A stretch of DNA of 64,000 nt from an uncultured Leptolyngbyaceae cyanobacterium (GTDB taxonomy: Bacteria; Cyanobacteriota; Cyanobacteriia; Leptolyngbyales; Leptolyngbyaceae): assembly GCA_938023035.1 (NCBI GenBank), contig CALIDI010000016.1, positions 1 through 64,000 on the forward strand, read 5' to 3'. This document shows positions 7,587-31,058 of this stretch, in pieces. The notes under the pieces were generated by a model. It searched no databases. It saw only the letters and a list, made by a program, of their open reading frames with translations, and was not told where the DNA came from. Position 1 is the first letter of the stretch. Every line of letters begins with the position of its first letter. Position numbers and translations under genes: made by a program.

Positions 7587-10500
7587 ATGAGAAACCCTAC
7601 TGGTCAATATGCAAATTGGATCGCCATTGTGATTACGGCCTATGGGCTAGTGACTTGGCTAGAGCCAATTGTGCTAGTTGAGCCAGCAATAGAGTGGCCT
7701 CGATCGCTATGGCCGTGGCTGCCACCTCTCTGCTTTTTTCTAACCGGCACGGCCTTATGGGTGTTACTGAATCGAATCAGAAACTCGGCTAACTCCTACT
7801 TTGTGCGGGTCGTTGCCAGTATGCTCTTGCTATTGGCCGCTAGTGCTTTGGGGCTGGCCTGGCAAAGGGAGCAATGGTTCCCCTATCCTGTCTTAAAATC
7901 GCTCTCATCCCTTTTTGTCTTCAGAGAAATGGGGATTGTCACCAGCTTCAGCTTTGGGCTAGTGGGTTTAGCACTTTGGCTACTCACGTTGTCTGGGGGC
8001 TGGCATTTGCTGGGGGCACAAATCATTGCCTTGTTGCTCGCGGCGGTCGCGGCAACGTCCGTCAGTCAATATCTATTTTGGGCTTTTTGGGGTGTCTCTA
8101 GCCTTGAGCAAACCCATGCCATGCCCCTGTTGGGGAGCATCGCGTTCTTTGGAATCAGTGTGGGGATTTTGCAAATTCAGCCGCACGCTGGCCTGATGCA
8201 ACCCCTAACCAGTCCAGAGATTGGAGGGGTCATGGCCCGTCGGCTCTTGCCCTGGGCAATTATCCTACCGATTGTGATTCACGGGCTGATTATGTGGGGA
8301 ACCCAGTTGCACCTTTACAGCCATGTGGATGGATCGGCCCTAGCCGCAGCAGCCATGCTAACAACCATGAGCCTGTTGATTTGGAGCAGTGCGCGTACCC
8401 TCAATCGGCTTTCTGCAGATGTGCAGATGCTGAATCAGCAAGTCATCCATGTCTTAGAAAGTACAACGGATGGGGTTGTTTCCCTAGATCGACAATGGCG
8501 TTATATCTACGTTAATGCCCAGGCCGAACAGATTTTGCGGCGATCGCGGCAGGATTTACTCGGCAAAGGCTTTTGGCAGACAGCGTCTTGCCTGACAAAT
8601 CCCTCAGTAGAGCCAGCCTATTACCGGGCCATGGGCGAACAGATTCCTGTTGAGTTTGAGATTGAACCCACATCTTCCACCGTCGTGCTCGAGGTCAGGG
8701 CCTTTCCACACCCGCTGGGTATAACTATTTACTTTCGGGATGTGAGTCAGCGCCAGCAACTAGAACGCGATCGCCAACAACTCAACAAAACCCTAGAGCT
8801 AAAGGTAGCTGAACGCACCGCCGAACTGTTGGCCATCCATCAGCAGTTGCAGATGAGTGAAGCGCGGCTCAGGACAGCTCAACAAGTCGCCCGCATGGGT
8901 AGCTGGGAGTATGATGTCTCAACCGGCCAAGTCATCTGGTCTACGGAGGTGTTGCATCTGCTTGGGCGGGTGCCTCCTGAGCAGGCACTTAGTTATGAAG
9001 AACAGATTCAGCAATTCTACACCGCCGACTCTGCCAACAGGCTCATTGCCGCCCTGAGACAGGCAATCACGACCGGTGAGCCTTACCATCTCGATTTGCA
9101 AGCCCAACACACCGATGGTTCCACCCTTTGGCTAGAAGCGGCAGGAGAGGTTTTGCGTGATCCATCGGGGCAAGTCGTGCAGTTAGTTGGCACCGTCAAA
9201 GATATTACCCACCGTAGGCAGCTAGAAACCCAACTGCAATTGCAGACAGAGCGAGAACAACTGTTGTCTAAAATGGTGCAGCGCATTCGCCAATCCTTAG
9301 ATTTAGACCAGGTACTCGAGGCAACCGTGGCAGAAGTACAGCAGTTGTTGCTCGCTGACCGGGTGCTAATCTATCAGTTTCAACCCGATTGGAGTGGGCG
9401 TGTGCGCATTGAGTCGGTAGAAGCCCATTGTTCTTCGATTTTACATCAGCTAATTTATGACCCCTGCTTTGCCGAAAGCAAGGCCGCAGCTTATATCAAC
9501 GGTCGAGTGGCGGTGATCGCGGATGTTGAGCAGGCAGACTTACTTCCCTGCTACCTAGAACTCTTAAAGAACCTCCAAGTTCGGGCCAATCTGGTCGTGC
9601 CGATTGTGATTGACTGCCAATCGCCCGACCTGAAAAGCCCCGCATTTTCTGCAACAGAGACCAGCGAGGAACGTGTGAATTCATCAGCGGCTGGCGGCTG
9701 CTTATGGGGTTTGCTCATTGCCCACCAGTGTCATGCCCCGCGCCAGTGGCAAACCTGGGAAATGGATTTATTAGAGCAGTTAGCTGGCCAAGTTGGCATT
9801 GCCATTAAGCAGGCTCAGCTGTATGAGCGGCTGCAATACCTAAATGCCCACAATGAGGCGCTTGTCAGTAAACGCACAGCTCAATTGCAAGAATCCCTAC
9901 AGTTTGAGGCGTTACTGCGGCAGATGACAGATCGGGTACGCAAAAGCTTGGATGAGCAGCAGATTTTGCAGACGGCGGTTCAGGCCCTTGCCCAGCTGAG
10001 TCAGGTCAATGTCTGCTATATGTTGTTGCAAACCTCTGAGCAAGTATTTGCTGCAAGCAATGATGCAGTCCCGACTCCGTGGCAGGATGAGACTCTGCGT
10101 GCACATTTATTCAGGCTCAATCGGCAACCAGAACTGCAAAACCAACTAAGCCAGCACCCGTCTCTACAATGCTGTGACTACTCTGCTACCGGCGAACCGA
10201 TACCCTTTACGCTGCTTGCTAGTTTGATTGCAGATGAAACCCAATGGCTTGGGTATCTATGGCTGGTCAAATCGGCGACCCACTGTTTTTCAGAAATGGA
10301 GATGCGATTAGTGCAACAGGTGGCTAATCATTGCGCGATCGCTCTGCGGCAATCCCGCCTATACCAAGCTGCTCAAGCCCAGGTTAAAGAATTAAAGCGC
10401 CTGAATCAGCTAAAGGATGATTTTCTTAGCACAGTTTCCCACGAGCTACGGACACCGATGTCAAACATCAAGATGTCTACCCAAATGCTAGAGTTGCTTC

Positions 10501-11177
10501 TGTTTGGTGGACCAAATCAAACTGCCATCGTAGCTGACGATAGCATCAAGCTAAAGCAGTATTTCCAGATTCTGCAGGATGAAATTCATTGCGAAATTAG
10601 TCTCATTAACGATTTGCTTGATCTCTCCCGTTTAGATGCAGAGAGCGAGTCAATCACCTTGACGACAATTGATCTGCGTCCTTGGTTAGAGCATCTTGCC
10701 GAACCCTATGTGCAACGAGCGCTACAGCAGCAGCAAGTGCTGTGTCAAAACATTAGTCAGGATCTGCCCCCGATCACAACCGATCTAGCTTACTTGGCTC
10801 GGATTTTGACCGAGCTACTCAATAACGCCTGCAAATATACACCCGCTCAAGGGGTGATTACCCTGGGTGCGACCTTGACTGCTACCAGCGGGGATGAGCC
10901 TGAGCAGCCGCAACTGACTTTACGGGTGAGTAACTCGGGTGTTGAGATTCCTGACTCAGAGTTAGGTCGCGTGTTTGATCGGTTCTATCGCATCCCCAAT
11001 AACGACCCCTGGAAACATGGTGGCACGGGTTTAGGGCTGGCTCTGGTCAAGAAGTTAGCCGAGTGTCTGGGGGGAAAGATCTGGGCAGAAAGCGGCAATG
11101 GCAGTACCCACTTCATCCTGCGCTTACCGTTGGTTTATGCACGCCCAGTGACTCATCAGCCCCTAAACAGCAATTAG
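7587..11177 (+). CDS. Membrane hybrid-sensing histidine kinase with a DXCF cyanobacteriochrome GAF domain
   Basis: Order: about eight membrane segments (residues 10-255), PAS (282-390), a helical linker, PAS (428-546), GAF1 (555-755), degenerate GAF2 (771-930), HisKA with His952 in TVSHELRTP, and HATPase (GGTGLGLALV near 1145). GAF1 reads as a cyanobacteriochrome: the DPCF motif places Cys627 exactly 28 residues before Cys655 in LPCYLELL, the spacing known for the two bilin-linked cysteines of TePixJ-type DXCF domains. VRANLVVPI and LWGLLIAHQCHAPRQW are also typical. The residue after the second Cys is Tyr, not the common His. Blue/green-type or related photosensing is inferred. No response regulator is adjacent, so the output partner is unknown. 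Confidence 0.9.
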   Translation: MRNPTGQYANWIAIVITAYGLVTWLEPIVLVEPAIEWPRSLWPWLPPLCFFLTGTALWVLLNRIRNSANSYFVRVVASMLLLLAASALGLAWQREQWFPYPVLKSLSSLFVFREMGIVTSFSFGLVGLALWLLTLSGGWHLLGAQIIALLLAAVAATSVSQYLFWAFWGVSSLEQTHAMPLLGSIAFFGISVGILQIQPHAGLMQPLTSPEIGGVMARRLLPWAIILPIVIHGLIMWGTQLHLYSHVDGSALAAAAMLTTMSLLIWSSARTLNRLSADVQMLNQQVIHVLESTTDGVVSLDRQWRYIYVNAQAEQILRRSRQDLLGKGFWQTASCLTNPSVEPAYYRAMGEQIPVEFEIEPTSSTVVLEVRAFPHPLGITIYFRDVSQRQQLERDRQQLNKTLELKVAERTAELLAIHQQLQMSEARLRTAQQVARMGSWEYDVSTGQVIWSTEVLHLLGRVPPEQALSYEEQIQQFYTADSANRLIAALRQAITTGEPYHLDLQAQHTDGSTLWLEAAGEVLRDPSGQVVQLVGTVKDITHRRQLETQLQLQTEREQLLSKMVQRIRQSLDLDQVLEATVAEVQQLLLADRVLIYQFQPDWSGRVRIESVEAHCSSILHQLIYDPCFAESKAAAYINGRVAVIADVEQADLLPCYLELLKNLQVRANLVVPIVIDCQSPDLKSPAFSATETSEERVNSSAAGGCLWGLLIAHQCHAPRQWQTWEMDLLEQLAGQVGIAIKQAQLYERLQYLNAHNEALVSKRTAQLQESLQFEALLRQMTDRVRKSLDEQQILQTAVQALAQLSQVNVCYMLLQTSEQVFAASNDAVPTPWQDETLRAHLFRLNRQPELQNQLSQHPSLQCCDYSATGEPIPFTLLASLIADETQWLGYLWLVKSATHCFSEMEMRLVQQVANHCAIALRQSRLYQAAQAQVKELKRLNQLKDDFLSTVSHELRTPMSNIKMSTQMLELLLFGGPNQTAIVADDSIKLKQYFQILQDEIHCEISLINDLLDLSRLDAESESITLTTIDLRPWLEHLAEPYVQRALQQQQVLCQNISQDLPPITTDLAYLARILTELLNNACKYTPAQGVITLGATLTATSGDEPEQPQLTLRVSNSGVEIPDSELGRVFDRFYRIPNNDPWKHGGTGLGLALVKKLAECLGGKIWAESGNGSTHFILRLPLVYARPVTHQPLNSN

Positions 11178-12870: not shown

Positions 12871-14718
12871 ATGATTTGGTTGGCTATTGCTTGGCAGCAG
12901 CCTCTGGTTGTGCTGTCGTCCCAAGGCAGAGGGCGATCGCTCCTGGCTTGCGTTTCTTTATTTTGGCTTTTAGGAGGTTGGATATCCCCTTCTGTCCAAG
13001 CTCAGACTGTCTTAATTCAGGAAGAGTTTAGTGGGACAGCGGCTAACCCCAACTGGACTTCTGGGATCGGCTCAGATGTCTCCGAGTTTCCTTGCCTGAC
13101 CTCGGCCCCGCCCAATCCCAATAACCCACCGCCCAATCCTGCGAGCTTTCCCACTCAGCAGCCCCTGGCTGGTTGCCCAGTGGGTACCGTGCCTGACCCG
13201 ACCGGCAGCGGTGTGTTACGTCTAACCTCGACGAACAATAACCAAGCTGGTTTTGTGTTTTTTCGGCAGCCGCTGCCTGCGGGGAGTGGGCTAATCATTA
13301 CCTTTGATATTTTTCAGTACGGCGGCACAGGGGCGGATGGTATTAGCTTCTTCCTGGTGGATGGCACCCAGCCAGAACCCACTCGTGCTGGGGCCTTTGG
13401 GGGGTCTCTGGGTTACGCTCAAAGGGATGGTGTACCAGGTCTACAGGGAGGCTACGTTGGCATAGGCTTTGATGCCTTTGGCAACTACGCGAACCCCACA
13501 GAGAGTCGAGTCGGTGGAGACGGGTTTTTACCCAACTTTATTTCTCTGCGCGGTTCAGAGGCCACTCAGTATCGCTACTTGGGAGGCGTCGCTGCGCCGA
13601 TCTTTAATCCTACGAACAATACCCGCGCTCCGGCGCGTCGAGGGGTGCGCGTGATCATCACGCCCAACAGTCAAATCACCGTAGAACTAGATACTGGCAG
13701 TGGTTTTATTCCAGTGATTTCTAATTTCGACTTAGCCAGTATTCCGGGGCAAGGCCCCCTCCCCAGCCAGATTATTTTTGGGTTTGCTGGCTCGACAGGG
13801 GCGGCCACTAACTTTAATGAAATTCGGGATTTTCGCGTGACCACGCTTTCCCCTGATTTGAGCCTGAGTAAAACCAGTCAGGGAAACTTTACTGTGGGCA
13901 CTCTCGGTGTGTACACCCTCACTGTGCAAAACTCCCCAGCCGCAGGCCAAACCCTGGGAGCCATTCGTGTCACCGATACTCTGCCAGATGGGTTTCAGTT
14001 TGTTGCAGCAACGGGCACTAATTGGAACTGTACGGCCACTGGTCAAGAAGTAACCTGTACTTACAATGGCTCAGCAGCACCGGGAGAAACCCTCCCCTCG
14101 ATTAGCCTGACGGTGCTGCCAACCGCGATCGCCACTGATGTCGAAAATGTAGCAACCGTCACCACTCCAGGCGATGCGGATCCGAGTAATAACACGGCCC
14201 GCGATCGCACCACCGTTGTTGGGCCTGCCGATCCCGTCTTGCGCCTGGTCAAGCGCATCACAGCCATTCGGCGTGGTGGCAACCCTTTAGCAAGAGTCGA
14301 TTTCAGCCAGTTTGTGAATGATCCAGCCAGTTCCAATGATAACTCCCCTGGCTGGCTAGCCTCTCCCCCCGTTGGCGTTTTTCAACTTGAGGACAACCTG
14401 CGACTACAGAGCGGCGATGAAATTGAATACACCCTATACGTTTTGTCAGAAGGGGGAAGCCCCGCGCAAAATGTCACAGTCTGTGACCACATCCCTCTAG
14501 GCACTCAACTGGTGCCAAACTCAGCCCAAATCCAGATCGGAACAAACCCAATCGCTCCGGGTGGGCAAATCTTTTCACCCCTGGCTCCTCTGCCCAATGG
14601 CAATCCCTGCGCTAACCCAGTTAACCCCAACGGGACAGTAATCTTTAACTTTGGCGATGTACCTAACACCTCGCCAGAGAATGGTGGCTTTGGACGGTTC
14701 CAAGTCCGGGTTGAGTAG
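12871..14718 (+). CDS. Secreted lectin-like/DUF11 surface protein
   Basis: An N-terminal signal peptide (SLLACVSLFWLLGGW, cleavage likely after SVQA near residue 44) is followed by a beta-rich domain of about 280 residues resembling bacterial L-type (legume-like) lectin domains: FVFFRQPLP, ITFDIFQYGGTGADGISFFL and YVGIGFDAFGNY. Residues about 330-440 form a DUF11 repeat (LSLSKTSQGNFTVGTLGVYT...VTDTLPDGF), and 455-615 a second DUF11-like unit. Export and carbohydrate or cell-surface binding are inferred. No anchor or sorting signal is visible at the C-terminus, which ends inside the second repeat and may be shortened. ATG 12871 has no strong ribosome site, so the start is uncertain. Confidence 0.75.
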   Translation: MIWLAIAWQQPLVVLSSQGRGRSLLACVSLFWLLGGWISPSVQAQTVLIQEEFSGTAANPNWTSGIGSDVSEFPCLTSAPPNPNNPPPNPASFPTQQPLAGCPVGTVPDPTGSGVLRLTSTNNNQAGFVFFRQPLPAGSGLIITFDIFQYGGTGADGISFFLVDGTQPEPTRAGAFGGSLGYAQRDGVPGLQGGYVGIGFDAFGNYANPTESRVGGDGFLPNFISLRGSEATQYRYLGGVAAPIFNPTNNTRAPARRGVRVIITPNSQITVELDTGSGFIPVISNFDLASIPGQGPLPSQIIFGFAGSTGAATNFNEIRDFRVTTLSPDLSLSKTSQGNFTVGTLGVYTLTVQNSPAAGQTLGAIRVTDTLPDGFQFVAATGTNWNCTATGQEVTCTYNGSAAPGETLPSISLTVLPTAIATDVENVATVTTPGDADPSNNTARDRTTVVGPADPVLRLVKRITAIRRGGNPLARVDFSQFVNDPASSNDNSPGWLASPPVGVFQLEDNLRLQSGDEIEYTLYVLSEGGSPAQNVTVCDHIPLGTQLVPNSAQIQIGTNPIAPGGQIFSPLAPLPNGNPCANPVNPNGTVIFNFGDVPNTSPENGGFGRFQVRVE

Positions 14719-19764: not shown

Positions 19765-21942
19765 TTATTTGGCTAGTTCCATCAACAGGTTTTGGGCGCT
19801 TTGCTCAGTTTCGCCAGGGGCAGGGCGACGTTGAACGTAGTGGCCATCAGGCTGGAGTTCCCAGGCGTGGCGGTTATCGGCCAGCATAATGCCTAGCATT
19901 TCCTCCAGGTCTTTTGCGATCGCCGCATCTTCTACCCGTACAACGGCTTCCACTCGCCGATCCAGATTGCGCGTCATCCAATCGGCACTGCCAATATAAA
20001 CTTCCTCTTCCCCTTGATTGTGAAAGTAGAAGACCCGTGAGTGCTCGAGAAACCGTCCGACGATGCTAATGACCCGAATATTTTCACTGACCCCTGCCAG
20101 CCCCGGACGCAGGCAGCACATCCCCCGTACAATCAGATCAATCTGTACCCCCGCCTGAGAAGCCTCATAAAGGGCTGCGATGATAGGCGGATCAATGAGG
20201 GCATTCATTTTTGCCACAATCCGAGCATGCCGGCCCTGTCGAGCATGGTTTGCTTCGCGTTGAATCAAGGCTAGAAAGCGATCGCGAAGATTAACCGGAG
20301 CCACCAACAAGCGTCGATAGACCTGTTGGCGGGAGTACCCCGTCAAGTAATTAAACAAGTCGGTTAAATCAGCCCCCAACTCAGGGCGGCAACTTAATAA
20401 CCCAATATCCGTATAAAGGCGGGCCGTTTTGGGATTGTAATTGCCCGTACCAATGTGGACATAGCGACGAATGCACTGCTCTTCTCGGCGCACGACCAAA
20501 ATGACCTTAGTATGGGTTTTGAGGCCCACCAGACCATAGACCACATGCACTCCCGCGCTTTCTAGTTGGCGTGCCCAGTTAATGTTGTTCTCCTCATCGA
20601 AGCGGGCCTTCAGCTCAACTAATACCGCCACCTGTTTACCATTCTCGGCAGCAGCAATCAGTGCCTTCACAATGGGTGAATCACCCGAAGTGCGATACAA
20701 CGTCATCTTAATAGCCAGCACATCGGGGTCATGGGCCGCCTGGTTGATAAACCGCTGCACTGTACCAGAAAACGAATGGTATGGGTGATGTAACAACACA
20801 TCATGTTTACGAATCTCTGCAAAGAGATCTAGTTCTTCGCTGCGGCTACCTTCTCGTTTATGGTCTAAATGCCGGCGCAGGCGGGGGGGTAGCACCGGTG
20901 ACCAGGGCGGATCGCGTAACTCTGGAACAGCTAAACCTGCCAGGGTAAACAGATTTCGCAAAGAAAGCATGCCCTCAATTGCATAAACATCCGCCTCGGT
21001 TAGCTCTAACTCTTGCTGAATCACTTCACGCATGCTGACTGGCATCTCGGAGTGAACTTCTAGCCGCACCACAGAGCCACCCAGCCGCCGCTTACGCAGT
21101 TCCTGTTCTACTGCCTGCATTAAATCATCGGCTTCATCCTCAGCTAAAGCTAGGTCACCATCCCGCGTGACCCGAAAGGGATAGTATTCCTGGATATTCA
21201 TGCCAGGGAAGAGCGCTTCTAGGTTATGGGCAATCACCTGCTCCACAGGAACCCCCGTCCACACGGCTGGCCGGTTGCCCGGCTGTAAGCCAACATTTGC
21301 AGGCAACTCTAAAAAACGGGGCAGCAACTGAGGGATTTTGACCCGAGCGAAAAATTCTTCACCCGTCACCGGATCTTTGACTACCACTGCCAGGCTGAGG
21401 CTGAGATTTGAAATGTAGGGAAAAGGGTGCCCAGGGTCAATGGCCAGTGGTGTTAAAATGGGAAAGATCTGCTCCTCAAAATATTGCTGTAAATAGGCGC
21501 GCTGCTCCTGATTTAAGTCGATGTAATCTAGCAGGTAAATACCGTGTTCTGCCAGCAGTGGCCGAATCGCTTGCTCAAAGTGGCGATGCTGTTTGGCAAC
21601 GATTGGCCGTAGGCGTTCGCCAATTCGCTGCAATTGCTCTGCCGCTGTCAATCCATCGGCAGAGAGTTTGGTCACTTCAGCGGCAATTTGCTGCTTCAAG
21701 GCCGCGACCCGTACCATAAAGTATTCGTCTAAATTGGCACTAAAAATGGCCAAAAACTTTAGCCGCTCCAGCAACGGGGTTCGAGGGTCGAAGGCTTCAT
21801 GAAGGACGCGATTATTAAACTCTAGCCAGCTCGTTTCACGGTTAAAGTAGTACTGTGGATCTTGCAGGTTGATACTTGTATTTATTTCACTGGTTTCACT
21901 GGCTGCTACCCGTCGTTGTCTTGGCATACTCTGTTCACCCAT
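19765..21942 (-). CDS. ppk: Polyphosphate kinase 1
   Basis: Ppk1 makes polyphosphate from ATP reversibly and stores phosphate taken up by Pst. The N domain begins at YYFNRETSWLEFNNRVLHEA, and the catalytic half contains KMTLYRTSGDSPIVKAL, HTKVILVVRREE and the active-site His region YVHIGTGNYNPKTARLYTD. SADWMTRNLDRRVE near residue 650 is the second conserved stretch. At 725 residues it is full length. The ATG at 21942 or a second one at 21927 could be used. It reads in the same direction as the pst operon but lies upstream of it across an 880-base gap, so it has its own promoter. Confidence 0.96.
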   Translation of the reverse strand: MGEQSMPRQRRVAASETSEINTSINLQDPQYYFNRETSWLEFNNRVLHEAFDPRTPLLERLKFLAIFSANLDEYFMVRVAALKQQIAAEVTKLSADGLTAAEQLQRIGERLRPIVAKQHRHFEQAIRPLLAEHGIYLLDYIDLNQEQRAYLQQYFEEQIFPILTPLAIDPGHPFPYISNLSLSLAVVVKDPVTGEEFFARVKIPQLLPRFLELPANVGLQPGNRPAVWTGVPVEQVIAHNLEALFPGMNIQEYYPFRVTRDGDLALAEDEADDLMQAVEQELRKRRLGGSVVRLEVHSEMPVSMREVIQQELELTEADVYAIEGMLSLRNLFTLAGLAVPELRDPPWSPVLPPRLRRHLDHKREGSRSEELDLFAEIRKHDVLLHHPYHSFSGTVQRFINQAAHDPDVLAIKMTLYRTSGDSPIVKALIAAAENGKQVAVLVELKARFDEENNINWARQLESAGVHVVYGLVGLKTHTKVILVVRREEQCIRRYVHIGTGNYNPKTARLYTDIGLLSCRPELGADLTDLFNYLTGYSRQQVYRRLLVAPVNLRDRFLALIQREANHARQGRHARIVAKMNALIDPPIIAALYEASQAGVQIDLIVRGMCCLRPGLAGVSENIRVISIVGRFLEHSRVFYFHNQGEEEVYIGSADWMTRNLDRRVEAVVRVEDAAIAKDLEEMLGIMLADNRHAWELQPDGHYVQRRPAPGETEQSAQNLLMELAK

Positions 21943-27201: not shown

Positions 27202-28491
27202 GTGAAGGTATTAGTTGTTGGCAATGGTGGGCGTGAACATGCTCTGGCTTGGAAATTGTTGGAGTCGGGCAAGGTTAAGCAAATCACCTGCGTTCCTGGA
27301 AATGGTGGGACGGCTGCCCTGCCCCGCTGCCAGAATATTGCTCTGGGGGTCAATGACTTTGAGGGCATCGCGCGGTTTGCCCTGGTGAATAACGTTTCCC
27401 TGGTTGTGGTTGGCCCAGAAGTGCCCCTTGCCGCTGGCATCACGAACTATCTACAGGATCAAAAAATCCCTGTTTTTGGCCCCACTCGTCAGGGTGCCCA
27501 GATCGAAGCTAGCAAAGCCTGGGCAAAGGCACTGATGCTGGAAGCGCAGATCCCAACAGCAAAGGCAGTAGTGTTTAACAATGCGGAGGCCGCAACAGCT
27601 TATGTAAAGGCTCAAGGCGCGCCGATTGTGGTAAAAGCAGATGGGTTGGCTGCGGGCAAGGGGGTGACCGTAGCTGCGACTGTGGCTGAGGCTGAGCAGG
27701 CGATCGCCGCTTCCTTTGGGGGCCAGTTTGGGGCAGCAGGCCAAACAGTGGTTATTGAAGAGTGTCTCACGGGCCAGGAAGTTTCAATTTTGGCTGTCAC
27801 AGATGGACTCACGATTCGGCCCCTGCTACCAGCACAGGATCATAAACAAATCGGTGTTGGAGATACCGGTGCCAATACAGGCGGCATGGGCGCTTATGCG
27901 CCTGCCCCACTCGTGACTCCCGAACTGCTGGCGCGGATTCAGCGAGAGATTCTGGAACCAGCGATCGCCCTCCTACGACACAAAGGGATTGACTATCGGG
28001 GAGTCCTTTATGCAGGGCTGATGATTACCCCAGCGGGCGATCCCAAAGTGATTGAGTTTAACTGTCGCTTTGGTGATCCCGAAACCCAGGTGGTTCTTCC
28101 CTTGTTAAGCACCCCCCTGGAGGACTTACTGTTAGCCTGTGTGGAGCAGCGCTTGGCGGACTTTCCCCCCCTTGAGTGGAAAGCTGGAGCCTGTGCTTGT
28201 GTGGTAGCAGCAGCAGAGGGTTATCCGGGAGAGTATCAGAAAGGGGCATTGATTACTGGCATCAATGCGGCTGAAGCAGACGGCACCCTAGTATTTCATG
28301 CCGGCACTCAGGTCAAGCCCCAGGGGCTTGTCAGTGATGGCGGGCGAGTCCTTTGTGTCACGGCTGTGGCCGATGAGTTTGATGCAGCGTTTGCTCAGGT
28401 CTATGCCGCCCTGAGTCAAATCCACTTTGATGGCATTTACTTTCGCTCTGATATTGGTCATCGCGTGCGGCGATCGCATGCAGTGCTCTAA
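27202..28491 (+). CDS. purD: Phosphoribosylamine-glycine ligase
   Basis: PurD joins phosphoribosylamine and glycine in the second step of purine synthesis, using ATP. It shows the N-terminal MKVLVVGNGGREHALAWKL, the ATP-grasp core (KAWAKALM, VVKADGLAAGKGVTVA) and the family signature EFNCRFGDPETQ near residue 285. At 429 residues it is complete. The start codon is GTG. nblS follows on the same strand after a 533-base gap that shows no gene. Confidence 0.96.
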   Translation: MKVLVVGNGGREHALAWKLLESGKVKQITCVPGNGGTAALPRCQNIALGVNDFEGIARFALVNNVSLVVVGPEVPLAAGITNYLQDQKIPVFGPTRQGAQIEASKAWAKALMLEAQIPTAKAVVFNNAEAATAYVKAQGAPIVVKADGLAAGKGVTVAATVAEAEQAIAASFGGQFGAAGQTVVIEECLTGQEVSILAVTDGLTIRPLLPAQDHKQIGVGDTGANTGGMGAYAPAPLVTPELLARIQREILEPAIALLRHKGIDYRGVLYAGLMITPAGDPKVIEFNCRFGDPETQVVLPLLSTPLEDLLLACVEQRLADFPPLEWKAGACACVVAAAEGYPGEYQKGALITGINAAEADGTLVFHAGTQVKPQGLVSDGGRVLCVTAVADEFDAAFAQVYAALSQIHFDGIYFRSDIGHRVRRSHAVL

Positions 28492-29024
28492 GCAATCGGA
28501 GCGGGTAAGAATACTCACAATTAGAGCATCTGGAGGCTGCCCACAAACGACTGACTAGCTTTCTTCCGTCAGGAGACCCGATTAAGACACTTCAGCATCC
28601 GTCTAGTGACCCTCACCCCGCCCCCTCTTCCAGCCCCCTAGTTCCCCACGCATGGGAAGTTAGAAGATAGGACGAGCTAGCGCTCTTGATGGGAGCAGGG
28701 GAGCCTAGTCGCGGGCATTCAAGCAACGGGGATAAGGGCTTCATCCCGTCGTCAAGCAACGCCAAGCTTTCCTGAAAATTGCCCTAATCCGATTTAGGTT
28801 TGCCAGTTTTAGACTTTCGCAGATTCAGGTGAGGGGGGATGACTGCTCCACAGCTCAGATGACAGCTTGGTTTCAGAAAACCCTGAAATGCATTGATTAT
28901 TCTAAAATGCAAATAGGATAAGTAACGGTCAAGGCGGCAATGCCCAAGTAGGCCGTTGTCTCATTGCGTGTATCATCTCTGAGGGGGTGACTCACCCATC
29001 CTTGAACACTCAAGGGGTTACTCT
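28492..29024. other. 533-bp spacer between purD and nblS
   Basis: It holds a decayed CCTCACCCCGCCCCC-type repeat fragment (about 28610) and no coding frame. AAGGGG at about 29011-29016 is the likely ribosome site of the next gene. Confidence 0.45.
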
Positions 29025-31058
29025 TTGTTCGCTTTCTTTGCCAGATTCAGACAGGTGATTGCAAGCTGGTGGTCAGAGTTTACCCTCCAGACCAAGCTAA
29101 TGGCGATCGCAACATTGGTCGTCTCCCTGATTATGAGCGGCCTCACCTTTTGGGCCGTTAACACCATTCAGCAAGATGCTCGTCTCAACGATACCCGCTT
29201 TGGCCGAGACCTAGGCTTGCTACTCGCAGCTAATGTAGCTCCTTTACTAGCCCCGGAACAGCGCAGCGAACTCGCTCGATTTTCCCATAATTTTTACAGC
29301 AGCACCTCCAGCCTCCGTTACATTCTCTATGCCGATGAAGAAGGCAACATCTTCTATGGCATTCCCTTTTCAGAATCAGAGGTGCAAAACTCTCTGACCA
29401 TCCGGCGTAAGATTAACCTGCCAGAAGACTACGCTCAAAACCTGAACCAACCAATGGTGCGACAGCATCTAACCCCCGATGGAGAAGTAACAGATGTTTT
29501 TGTGCCGCTTTATTACGAGAACCAGTATCGGGGTGTACTGGCCATTGGTACCAACCCTAACCCAACCGTCGTCACCTCCTCCCATTTGACTCGGGATGTC
29601 ACGATTGCGGTCTTTGTTTCCATTTGGGTCATGGTGATTTTAGGGGCCGTGTTCAATGCCCTGACGATTACTCGCCCCATTAAAGAATTGCTGGTGGGTG
29701 TAAAGAACATTGCATCTGGTAACTTTAAGCAACGGGTCGATTTGCCCTTCGGCGGAGAACTAGGCGAGCTGATTATCAGCTTTAACGAAATGGCCGAAAG
29801 GTTAGAGCGCTACGAAGAGCAGAACATTGAAGAACTCACGTCTGAAAAAGCGAAATTGGAAACGTTGGTCTCGACAATCGCCGACGGAGCCGTGCTGATC
29901 GACACAGAAATGCAAGTTATTTTAACGAATCCAACAGCCCGCCGGTTGCTGGGTTGGGAGGGCAAAACAGTAGAAGGTGAAAACCTCCTACAGATATTGC
30001 CAAACCCGATCTTGGCAGAGGTTACGCGCCCTTTATATCAAATTGTGCATGGGCACTTGAAAGAAGGCGCAGAGTTTCGCATTGCTTTAACCGAACCCAG
30101 CAATCGCACGGTTCGGATTCTGCTAACGACTGTTTTAGACGCAGGGCGAGAGAATGTTAGAGGGATTGCGATGACCGTTCAGGACATTACTCGCGAAGCC
30201 GAACTAAACGAGGCCAAAAGTCATTTCATCAGCAATGTTTCCCATGAGCTTCGCACACCCTTGTTTAATATCAAGTCTTTCATTGAGACCTTGTATGAAT
30301 ATGGGGAAAACCTGAGTGAGGGTGAACGGCAAGAGTTTTTAGAAACCGCTAACCGCGAAACGGATCGACTGACACGACTGGTCAACGATGTCTTAGACCT
30401 CTCCCGGCTTGAGTCGAATCGGGCTTACACCCTAGAAGCGGTTGATCTGGTGCAACCGATTGAGCAAACCCTGCGCACCTACCAACTAAATGCCCGGGAT
30501 AAGGGAATCGAGCTGATTCAGGAGATTAGCCCCGATTTGCCACCCGTATTGGGACATTACGATCTGCTTTTGCAGGTTTTTACAAACTTGGTAGGAAATG
30601 CCCTCAAATTTACACCAAGCGGAGGAAAAGTTGCACTCCGCGCTTATACCCTCGACCCCCAAAATACCACCTGTGCTGTAGCAGATGGTAAAGGCAGTCG
30701 ATTTCTCTGCCCCCCCGTTGAGGTGGCTGATGTCGCCGCCCCGCCGGGTGGAAAGCCGCTGAGAAAGGTACGGGTAGAAGTCGCTGACACGGGCATTGGT
30801 ATCGCCCCGGAGGATCAGCAGGCCATTTTTGATCGGTTTTTTCGGGTTGAAAACCGGGTTCATACCCTGGAAGGAACTGGGTTAGGGTTATCCATCGTGC
30901 GTAACATTATTGAAAAGCATCACAGTCAGGTTCATTTGGTGAGCGATGTTGGCGTTGGCACTACCTTCTGGTTTGACTTAATGATTTTTCAGGATCCGCG
31001 CCCTGAAGCTGAAGAAGCCCGATTTGCCATCTCACCAGCAGCGATCGCCACTCGTTAA
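29025..31058 (+). CDS. nblS: NblS/Hik33 (DspA)-type sensor histidine kinase
   Basis: This is the conserved cyanobacterial membrane kinase that controls stress, high-light, cold and phycobilisome-degradation genes. Order: a membrane helix near 25-47, an extracytoplasmic domain (LRYILYADEEGNIFYGIPFS), a second helix near 196-216, HAMP, PAS (about 275-385), HisKA with His407 in NVSHELRTPLFNIKSF, and HATPase (GTGLGLSIVRNII). The length of 677 residues and the overall text fit NblS closely. The start is TTG at 29025, backed by AAGGGG. Its usual regulator RpaB is not in the window. Confidence 0.93.
   Translation: MFAFFARFRQVIASWWSEFTLQTKLMAIATLVVSLIMSGLTFWAVNTIQQDARLNDTRFGRDLGLLLAANVAPLLAPEQRSELARFSHNFYSSTSSLRYILYADEEGNIFYGIPFSESEVQNSLTIRRKINLPEDYAQNLNQPMVRQHLTPDGEVTDVFVPLYYENQYRGVLAIGTNPNPTVVTSSHLTRDVTIAVFVSIWVMVILGAVFNALTITRPIKELLVGVKNIASGNFKQRVDLPFGGELGELIISFNEMAERLERYEEQNIEELTSEKAKLETLVSTIADGAVLIDTEMQVILTNPTARRLLGWEGKTVEGENLLQILPNPILAEVTRPLYQIVHGHLKEGAEFRIALTEPSNRTVRILLTTVLDAGRENVRGIAMTVQDITREAELNEAKSHFISNVSHELRTPLFNIKSFIETLYEYGENLSEGERQEFLETANRETDRLTRLVNDVLDLSRLESNRAYTLEAVDLVQPIEQTLRTYQLNARDKGIELIQEISPDLPPVLGHYDLLLQVFTNLVGNALKFTPSGGKVALRAYTLDPQNTTCAVADGKGSRFLCPPVEVADVAAPPGGKPLRKVRVEVADTGIGIAPEDQQAIFDRFFRVENRVHTLEGTGLGLSIVRNIIEKHHSQVHLVSDVGVGTTFWFDLMIFQDPRPEAEEARFAISPAAIATR

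Follow-up and report, generated by a model that had tools for sequence, protein, structure and literature searches.

The window analyzed here (the whole stretch of DNA, 64,000 nucleotides) encodes a membrane histidine kinase whose first GAF domain is, by its sequence, predicted fold, and relatives, a DXCF-type two-Cys cyanobacteriochrome (CBCR). The kinase is probably regulated by light. It is an ordinary DXCF CBCR kinase that an earlier sequence-only reading had spotted correctly, and its supposed oddity, a Tyr in place of His directly after the canonical bilin Cys, is a common one: by sequence census, this Tyr is frequent in two-Cys CBCRs and rare in single-Cys red/green CBCRs.

Kinase architecture and identity of the first GAF domain

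The gene and its features lie at the following positions of the window.

7587..11177, + strand: histidine kinase gene, 1196 aa (ORF; Pfam)
7620..8300, + strand: N-terminal membrane region, ~6 hydrophobic segments, residues 12-238 (hydropathy)
8454..8756, + strand: PAS domain 1, PAS_4, residues 290-390 (Pfam)
8931..9197, + strand: PAS domain 2, PAS_3, residues 449-537 (Pfam)
9300..9806, + strand: predicted CBCR GAF domain, residues 572-740 (Pfam GAF, 1.1e-24 for the family; PDB sequence matches; AF2 and Foldseek)
9459..9470, + strand: DPCF motif starting at residue 625, with the second Cys, C627 (codon 9465-9467) (sequence)
9549..9554, + strand: canonical bilin Cys, C655 (codon 9549-9551), followed by Tyr656 (9552-9554) replacing His (sequence; census)
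9615..9701, + strand: ~27-residue insertion (677-705) that separates two beta strands (low AF2 confidence; length variable among relatives)
9948..10346, + strand: second GAF, residues 788-920, without a bilin Cys (Pfam GAF_2, 9e-11)
10413..10643, + strand: HisKA dimerization/phosphoacceptor domain, residues 943-1019, with His952 in SHELRTP (Pfam; motif)
10788..11132, + strand: HATPase_c, residues 1068-1182, with NACKYTP (1080) and GTGLGL (1146) (Pfam; motifs)

The protein runs from the membrane region through PAS, PAS, CBCR GAF, GAF, HisKA, and HATPase, with no receiver domain. This order and the hydrophobic segments agree with the membrane PAS-PAS-GAF-GAF histidine kinase proposed by the sequence-only reading. 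Hydropathy analysis of residues 12-238 gave seven hydrophobic windows, two of them overlapping, corresponding to ~6 membrane passes. No Pfam family was found for the first 284 residues, and among the loci compared by blastp the relatives of the membrane region were the same-genus orthologue (36% identity) and one partial match of 174 aa in Leptolyngbya sp. FACHB-321. The features expected of a histidine kinase are present, namely the phosphoacceptor His952 in HisKA and both HATPase motifs. The G1-like box of the HATPase (window 10926-10952, residues 1114-1122) reads VSNSGVEIP versus the usual DxGxG, and the orthologue's version is VTNTGVEIP.

The second GAF had been described as degenerate, a description that did not hold. 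It accompanies a CBCR-type GAF and a kinase in 87 open frames among the loci compared by blastp, some of them redundant, with the best being 43-47% identical. Judged by these sequences, it is a recurrent non-bilin partner of the CBCR GAF and not a degenerate copy.

Translation of the ORF confirmed Cys627 in DPCF and Cys655 in LPCYLELL (which starts at residue 653), 28 residues apart and both within the first GAF. C655 is the canonical bilin Cys of a CBCR GAF, and D625-P-C627-F628 with C655 28 residues on is the arrangement of a DXCF CBCR. D625 supplies the Asp of the motif and F628 the aromatic residue expected on one face of the bilin; the equivalent residues are D56 and F59 of PMC10357936. 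The orthologue and many other GAFs have C627, C655, D625, and F628 at matching positions, and reversed control patterns gave 0 hits for DXCF-28-CY and 1 for DXCF-28-CH in 292 genomes, so the two-Cys motif, as a sequence pattern, is not due to chance. The protein retains all of D625, C627, F628, C655, W707, and C715, residues that vary little or not at all among 182 two-Cys relatives. At the beta2 position that is Phe in red/green CBCRs the protein has Val606, and nearly all of the 182 DXCF relatives compared have V or I. L660 is a Leu at canonical Cys+5, a Tyr/Leu position at which Leu is the blue-shifting choice (PMC7504144).

The best PDB sequence matches of the GAF were CBCRs, including TePixJ (3vv4/4fof), with E values down to 9.4e-46 (phmmer), which places it in the CBCR/phytochrome type. 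An AF2 model of residues 533-765, built from 68 sequences (those of the window plus related loci), had a mean pLDDT of 89.2; most of its low-confidence residues were those of the 677-705 loop. Its best Foldseek matches were also CBCR GAFs, with the dual-sensor kinase 6oap first, followed by miRFP670nano, TePixJ, and AnPixJg2.

Two other CBCR classes were considered. Insert-Cys CBCRs carry the second Cys not at the DXCF position but in a CXXR/K motif of an insertion loop (PMC5240096); the upstream Cys615 reads CSSI, the DXCF Cys is present, and the 27-residue insertion is in the wrong place to be an insert-Cys loop. Extended red/green CBCRs are defined by a WXDXXL motif (PMC11284453) and have no second Cys; the corresponding residues here read IYDPCF.

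The GAF had also been called TePixJ-type. The label holds for the motif and the 28-residue spacing, but is not supported as a statement of descent: in an approximately unbiased (AU) test on a 39-row set, neither a grouping with TePixJ (p 0.49) nor one with red/green CBCRs (p 0.57) was rejected. In a 69-row tree the only highly supported partner of the GAF was its orthologue, TePixJ fell beside a different GAF from this genome, and the red/green CBCRs formed a supported group of their own. The domain is too short to settle its deep placement.

Frequency of tyrosine after the canonical cysteine

His after the canonical Cys is usual in DXCF CBCRs without defining them, and the sequence-only reading was right that Tyr656 replaces it. 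It was mistaken in regarding this as unusual. We counted DNA patterns in 292 genomes of the phylum that were chosen regardless of the gene, summing the tabulated hits. DXCF-28-CH was found at 347 sites in 87 genomes and DXCF-28-CY at 89 sites in 55 genomes, although at least one CY match (genome G313) looks like chance; Tyr thus accounts for 89 of 436 DXCF-28 sites (~20%). In the genome studied here, the exact DXCF-28-CY pattern occurs once more, on contig C2, and contig C14 encodes a DSCF...CY domain. Among 118 single-Cys red/green sites (WXDXXL) that were read out, 116 had His and 2 had Tyr (Fisher p = 3e-8 for the contrast with two-Cys sites, not corrected for kinship).

A similar distribution was seen in 276 distinct GAFs close to the one studied here, a sample biased toward it. 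Those with the equivalent of C627 had His in 114 cases and Tyr in 68, and those without it had His in 29, Leu in 25, and Tyr in 2, one of the latter being the engineered miRFP670nano. On a FastTree tree the Tyr label required 45 changes and the second Cys 14, many of them on weak branches, and His and Tyr seem to interchange easily among the two-Cys GAFs. The raw association of Tyr with the second Cys carries no kinship correction, and a comparison of independent tree pairs was uninformative for it, since branches with a change in Tyr seldom also have one in the second Cys. Some residues (V647, P626, H642, and others) tended to accompany Tyr, but weakly and uncorrected for kinship or multiple testing, and no clear pocket partner was among them.

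Chromophore genes and genomic context

By sequence, the host has the enzymes needed to make a bilin: a heme oxygenase (301 bits) is encoded on the same contig as the kinase gene, and PcyA (256 bits) on contig C10. The nearest response regulators on the kinase contig start at 55.8 kb, ~45 kb away, in keeping with the earlier statement that the kinase has no linked partner. Conservation of the neighborhood was confined to the upstream folP and to the genus. Neither a promoter/terminator scan upstream of the gene nor an Rfam scan of the 64-kb window returned anything of use.

The same-genus orthologue (locus L031) is 59% identical in the GAF region and keeps D625, C627, F628, C655, and Y656. A single in-frame TAG interrupts its CBCR GAF (L031:1501-2211) where the kinase in the window has the Trp of PRQWQ, and the architecture is otherwise intact. 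The TAG may be a real nonsense mutation or an assembly error of the metagenome-assembled genome (MAG).

Several other loci were observed in passing. On contig C10 (119164-125720), a CBCR kinase of RcaE-like type (EEVF...CL) and response-regulator domains are encoded no more than a few kb from pcyA, and the region is possibly a chromatic-acclimation cluster. Contig C17 (16636-18270) carries a 1293-aa frame with three tandem CBCR GAFs, one of which reads DPCF...CH and is nearest TePixJ in the tree; response regulators lie near this frame, at 20134-21281. In the window, positions 27202-31058 hold purD and, after it, a 677-aa HAMP-PAS-histidine kinase, the layout of cyanobacterial nblS/hik33. A 615-aa ORF at window positions 12871-14718 combines a legume-type lectin beta-barrel with a DUF11 repeat, and its product is likely a surface or secreted protein.

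Proposed light sensing, possible role of Tyr656, and known systems

We consider it likely that the protein is a light-regulated membrane histidine kinase that works as follows. C655 would carry phycocyanobilin made by PcyA, attached by its ring A. In darkness a second bond, from C627 to carbon 10 of the bilin, would break the conjugation and give blue absorption. Light would convert 15Z to 15E and release C627, giving a longer-wavelength product that would be green if phycocyanobilin is isomerized to phycoviolobilin and orange if it is not; a blue dark state with one of these two products is what we would expect. A teal product is unlikely, judging from the sequence, because the beta2 Phe is replaced by Val606. 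The signal would pass along a long helix to the second GAF, then to HisKA and His952, and finally to an unlinked response regulator. Tyr656 would lie against rings B and C, opposite F628 and near carbon 10, and would probably tune proton exchange, the packing of the bilin, and how stable the bond between C627 and carbon 10 is, without abolishing sensing. Against this mechanism, the in-frame TAG in the orthologue's GAF suggests that the gene may be dispensable, unless it is a MAG error, and C627 could be too far from carbon 10 in the real structure. A natural bearer of the CY pair that does not photoconvert, NpF2164g5 (PMC5578081, PMC6121604), also counts against it.

The position proposed for Tyr656 draws on engineered relatives. 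It corresponds to H260 of phytochrome DrBphP (PMC10357936). In miRFP670nano, an evolved form of NpR3784, selection yielded H87Y, and this Tyr makes a face-to-face stack with biliverdin (PMC6336887); Y87 and F59 hold rings B and C between them (PMC6336887, PMC10357936). F59 is equivalent to F628, which adjoins C627, and because of this sandwich Tyr656 is expected, by analogy, to pack beside carbon 10, the atom attacked by C627. As for NpF2164g5, a mutagenesis primer for its BV4 variant translates to GYVQCYLEI (PMC7504144), and two close natural homologues read VQCYLEIL; from this sequence evidence NpF2164g5 very likely carries CY naturally. It was the only naturally CY-bearing CBCR that we could match to published work, and it fluoresces with a 10-15% yield without photoconverting (PMC5578081, PMC6121604).

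These observations invite a broader proposal, which we put forward tentatively and think somewhat doubtful as it stands: that the His-to-Tyr switch has arisen repeatedly in nature as a means of tuning and is linked to the second Cys of DXCF CBCRs. Tyr and the DXCF Phe would sandwich rings B and C around carbon 10, with Tyr altering the stability or speed of the Cys-carbon 10 bond, and repeated flips would set dark reversion or color. Among the papers searched, we found no statement of His/Tyr tuning tied to the second Cys; an earlier mention of CY is possible in Rockwell 2012/2015 and Hasegawa 2018.

Other readings of the domain were weighed against a photoconverting two-Cys sensor. The closest to it supposes a two-Cys CBCR that keeps phycocyanobilin or accepts biliverdin, since Tyr656 stacks on rings B and C, and that forms an orange or far-red-shifted product instead of following the blue/green cycle of TePixJ. 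We regard this as rather unlikely. H87Y did aid the accommodation of biliverdin in miRFP670nano (PMC6336887), and known DXCF CBCRs form orange, green, or teal products (PMC5578081), but isomerization is tied to the second Cys (PMC11284453), which this protein has. With a different chromophore, this reading is a special case of the favored mechanism. It is less probable still that Tyr656 locks a bilin bound through C655, leaving the domain inert or only fluorescent, with the kinase sensing redox or PAS ligands and the bilin serving as a structural or screening pigment. NpF2164g5, a red/green CBCR, and the selection of H87Y during the evolution of a fluorescent protein (PMC6336887) both speak for such a lock. 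However, NpF2164g5 and miRFP670nano come from other lineages and have no DXCF Cys; NpF2164g5 differs elsewhere too, and the block of ring D in miRFP670nano is attributed to N117H, not to H87Y. Moreover, Tyr occurs in about one-fifth of all DXCF-28 GAFs, which is too many for inertness by default.

The least probable reading, and in our judgment a very improbable one, makes the GAF a CBCR relic that binds no bilin in vivo and is kept for dimerization or small-molecule binding. The same-genus copy with a stop in its GAF and the other GAFs of this genome that have no canonical Cys would fit a relic, but a decaying pocket is not expected to keep all of D625, C627, F628, C655, W707, and C715.

Taken alone, the gene is one further predicted blue-light kinase in a genome that encodes many CBCRs. 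What could matter more is that the residue engineered into miRFP670nano is found naturally in ~20% of two-Cys CBCRs and almost never in red/green ones. The natural CY and CH variants form a ready panel for relating the neighbor of the bilin Cys to photoconversion, fluorescence, and biliverdin acceptance.

Among known systems, the TePixJ GAF (PDB 3vv4, 4fof, 4glq) has the same DPCF and canonical Cys 28 residues apart, the same fold, Val at beta2, and Leu at Cys+5. It is 41% identical to the GAF described here and has His, not Tyr, after the canonical Cys; at the fifth residue past the DPCF Cys it has Trp where the present protein has Lys632, and its output is a chemotaxis protein, whereas that of the present protein is a kinase. 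The GAF of the dual-sensor histidine kinase (6oap/6oaq/6ob8) is the best match in both sequence (160 bits) and fold and likewise feeds a histidine kinase, but it reads DQYF, has no second Cys, and has His after the canonical Cys. The second-best match is NpR3784 with the proteins engineered from it, miRFP670nano, nano3, and 718nano. The engineered Tyr87 corresponds to the natural Tyr656 and His117 to His713, but the DXCF Cys is missing (DRYF in miRFP670nano) and the natural residue at 87 is His; unlike the kinase, the miRFP670nano-type fluorescent proteins are single-domain and bind biliverdin. NpF2164g5 of Nostoc punctiforme shares the Tyr directly after the canonical Cys, as deduced from the primer and two homologues, but belongs to the red/green lineage, has no second Cys, and does not photoconvert.
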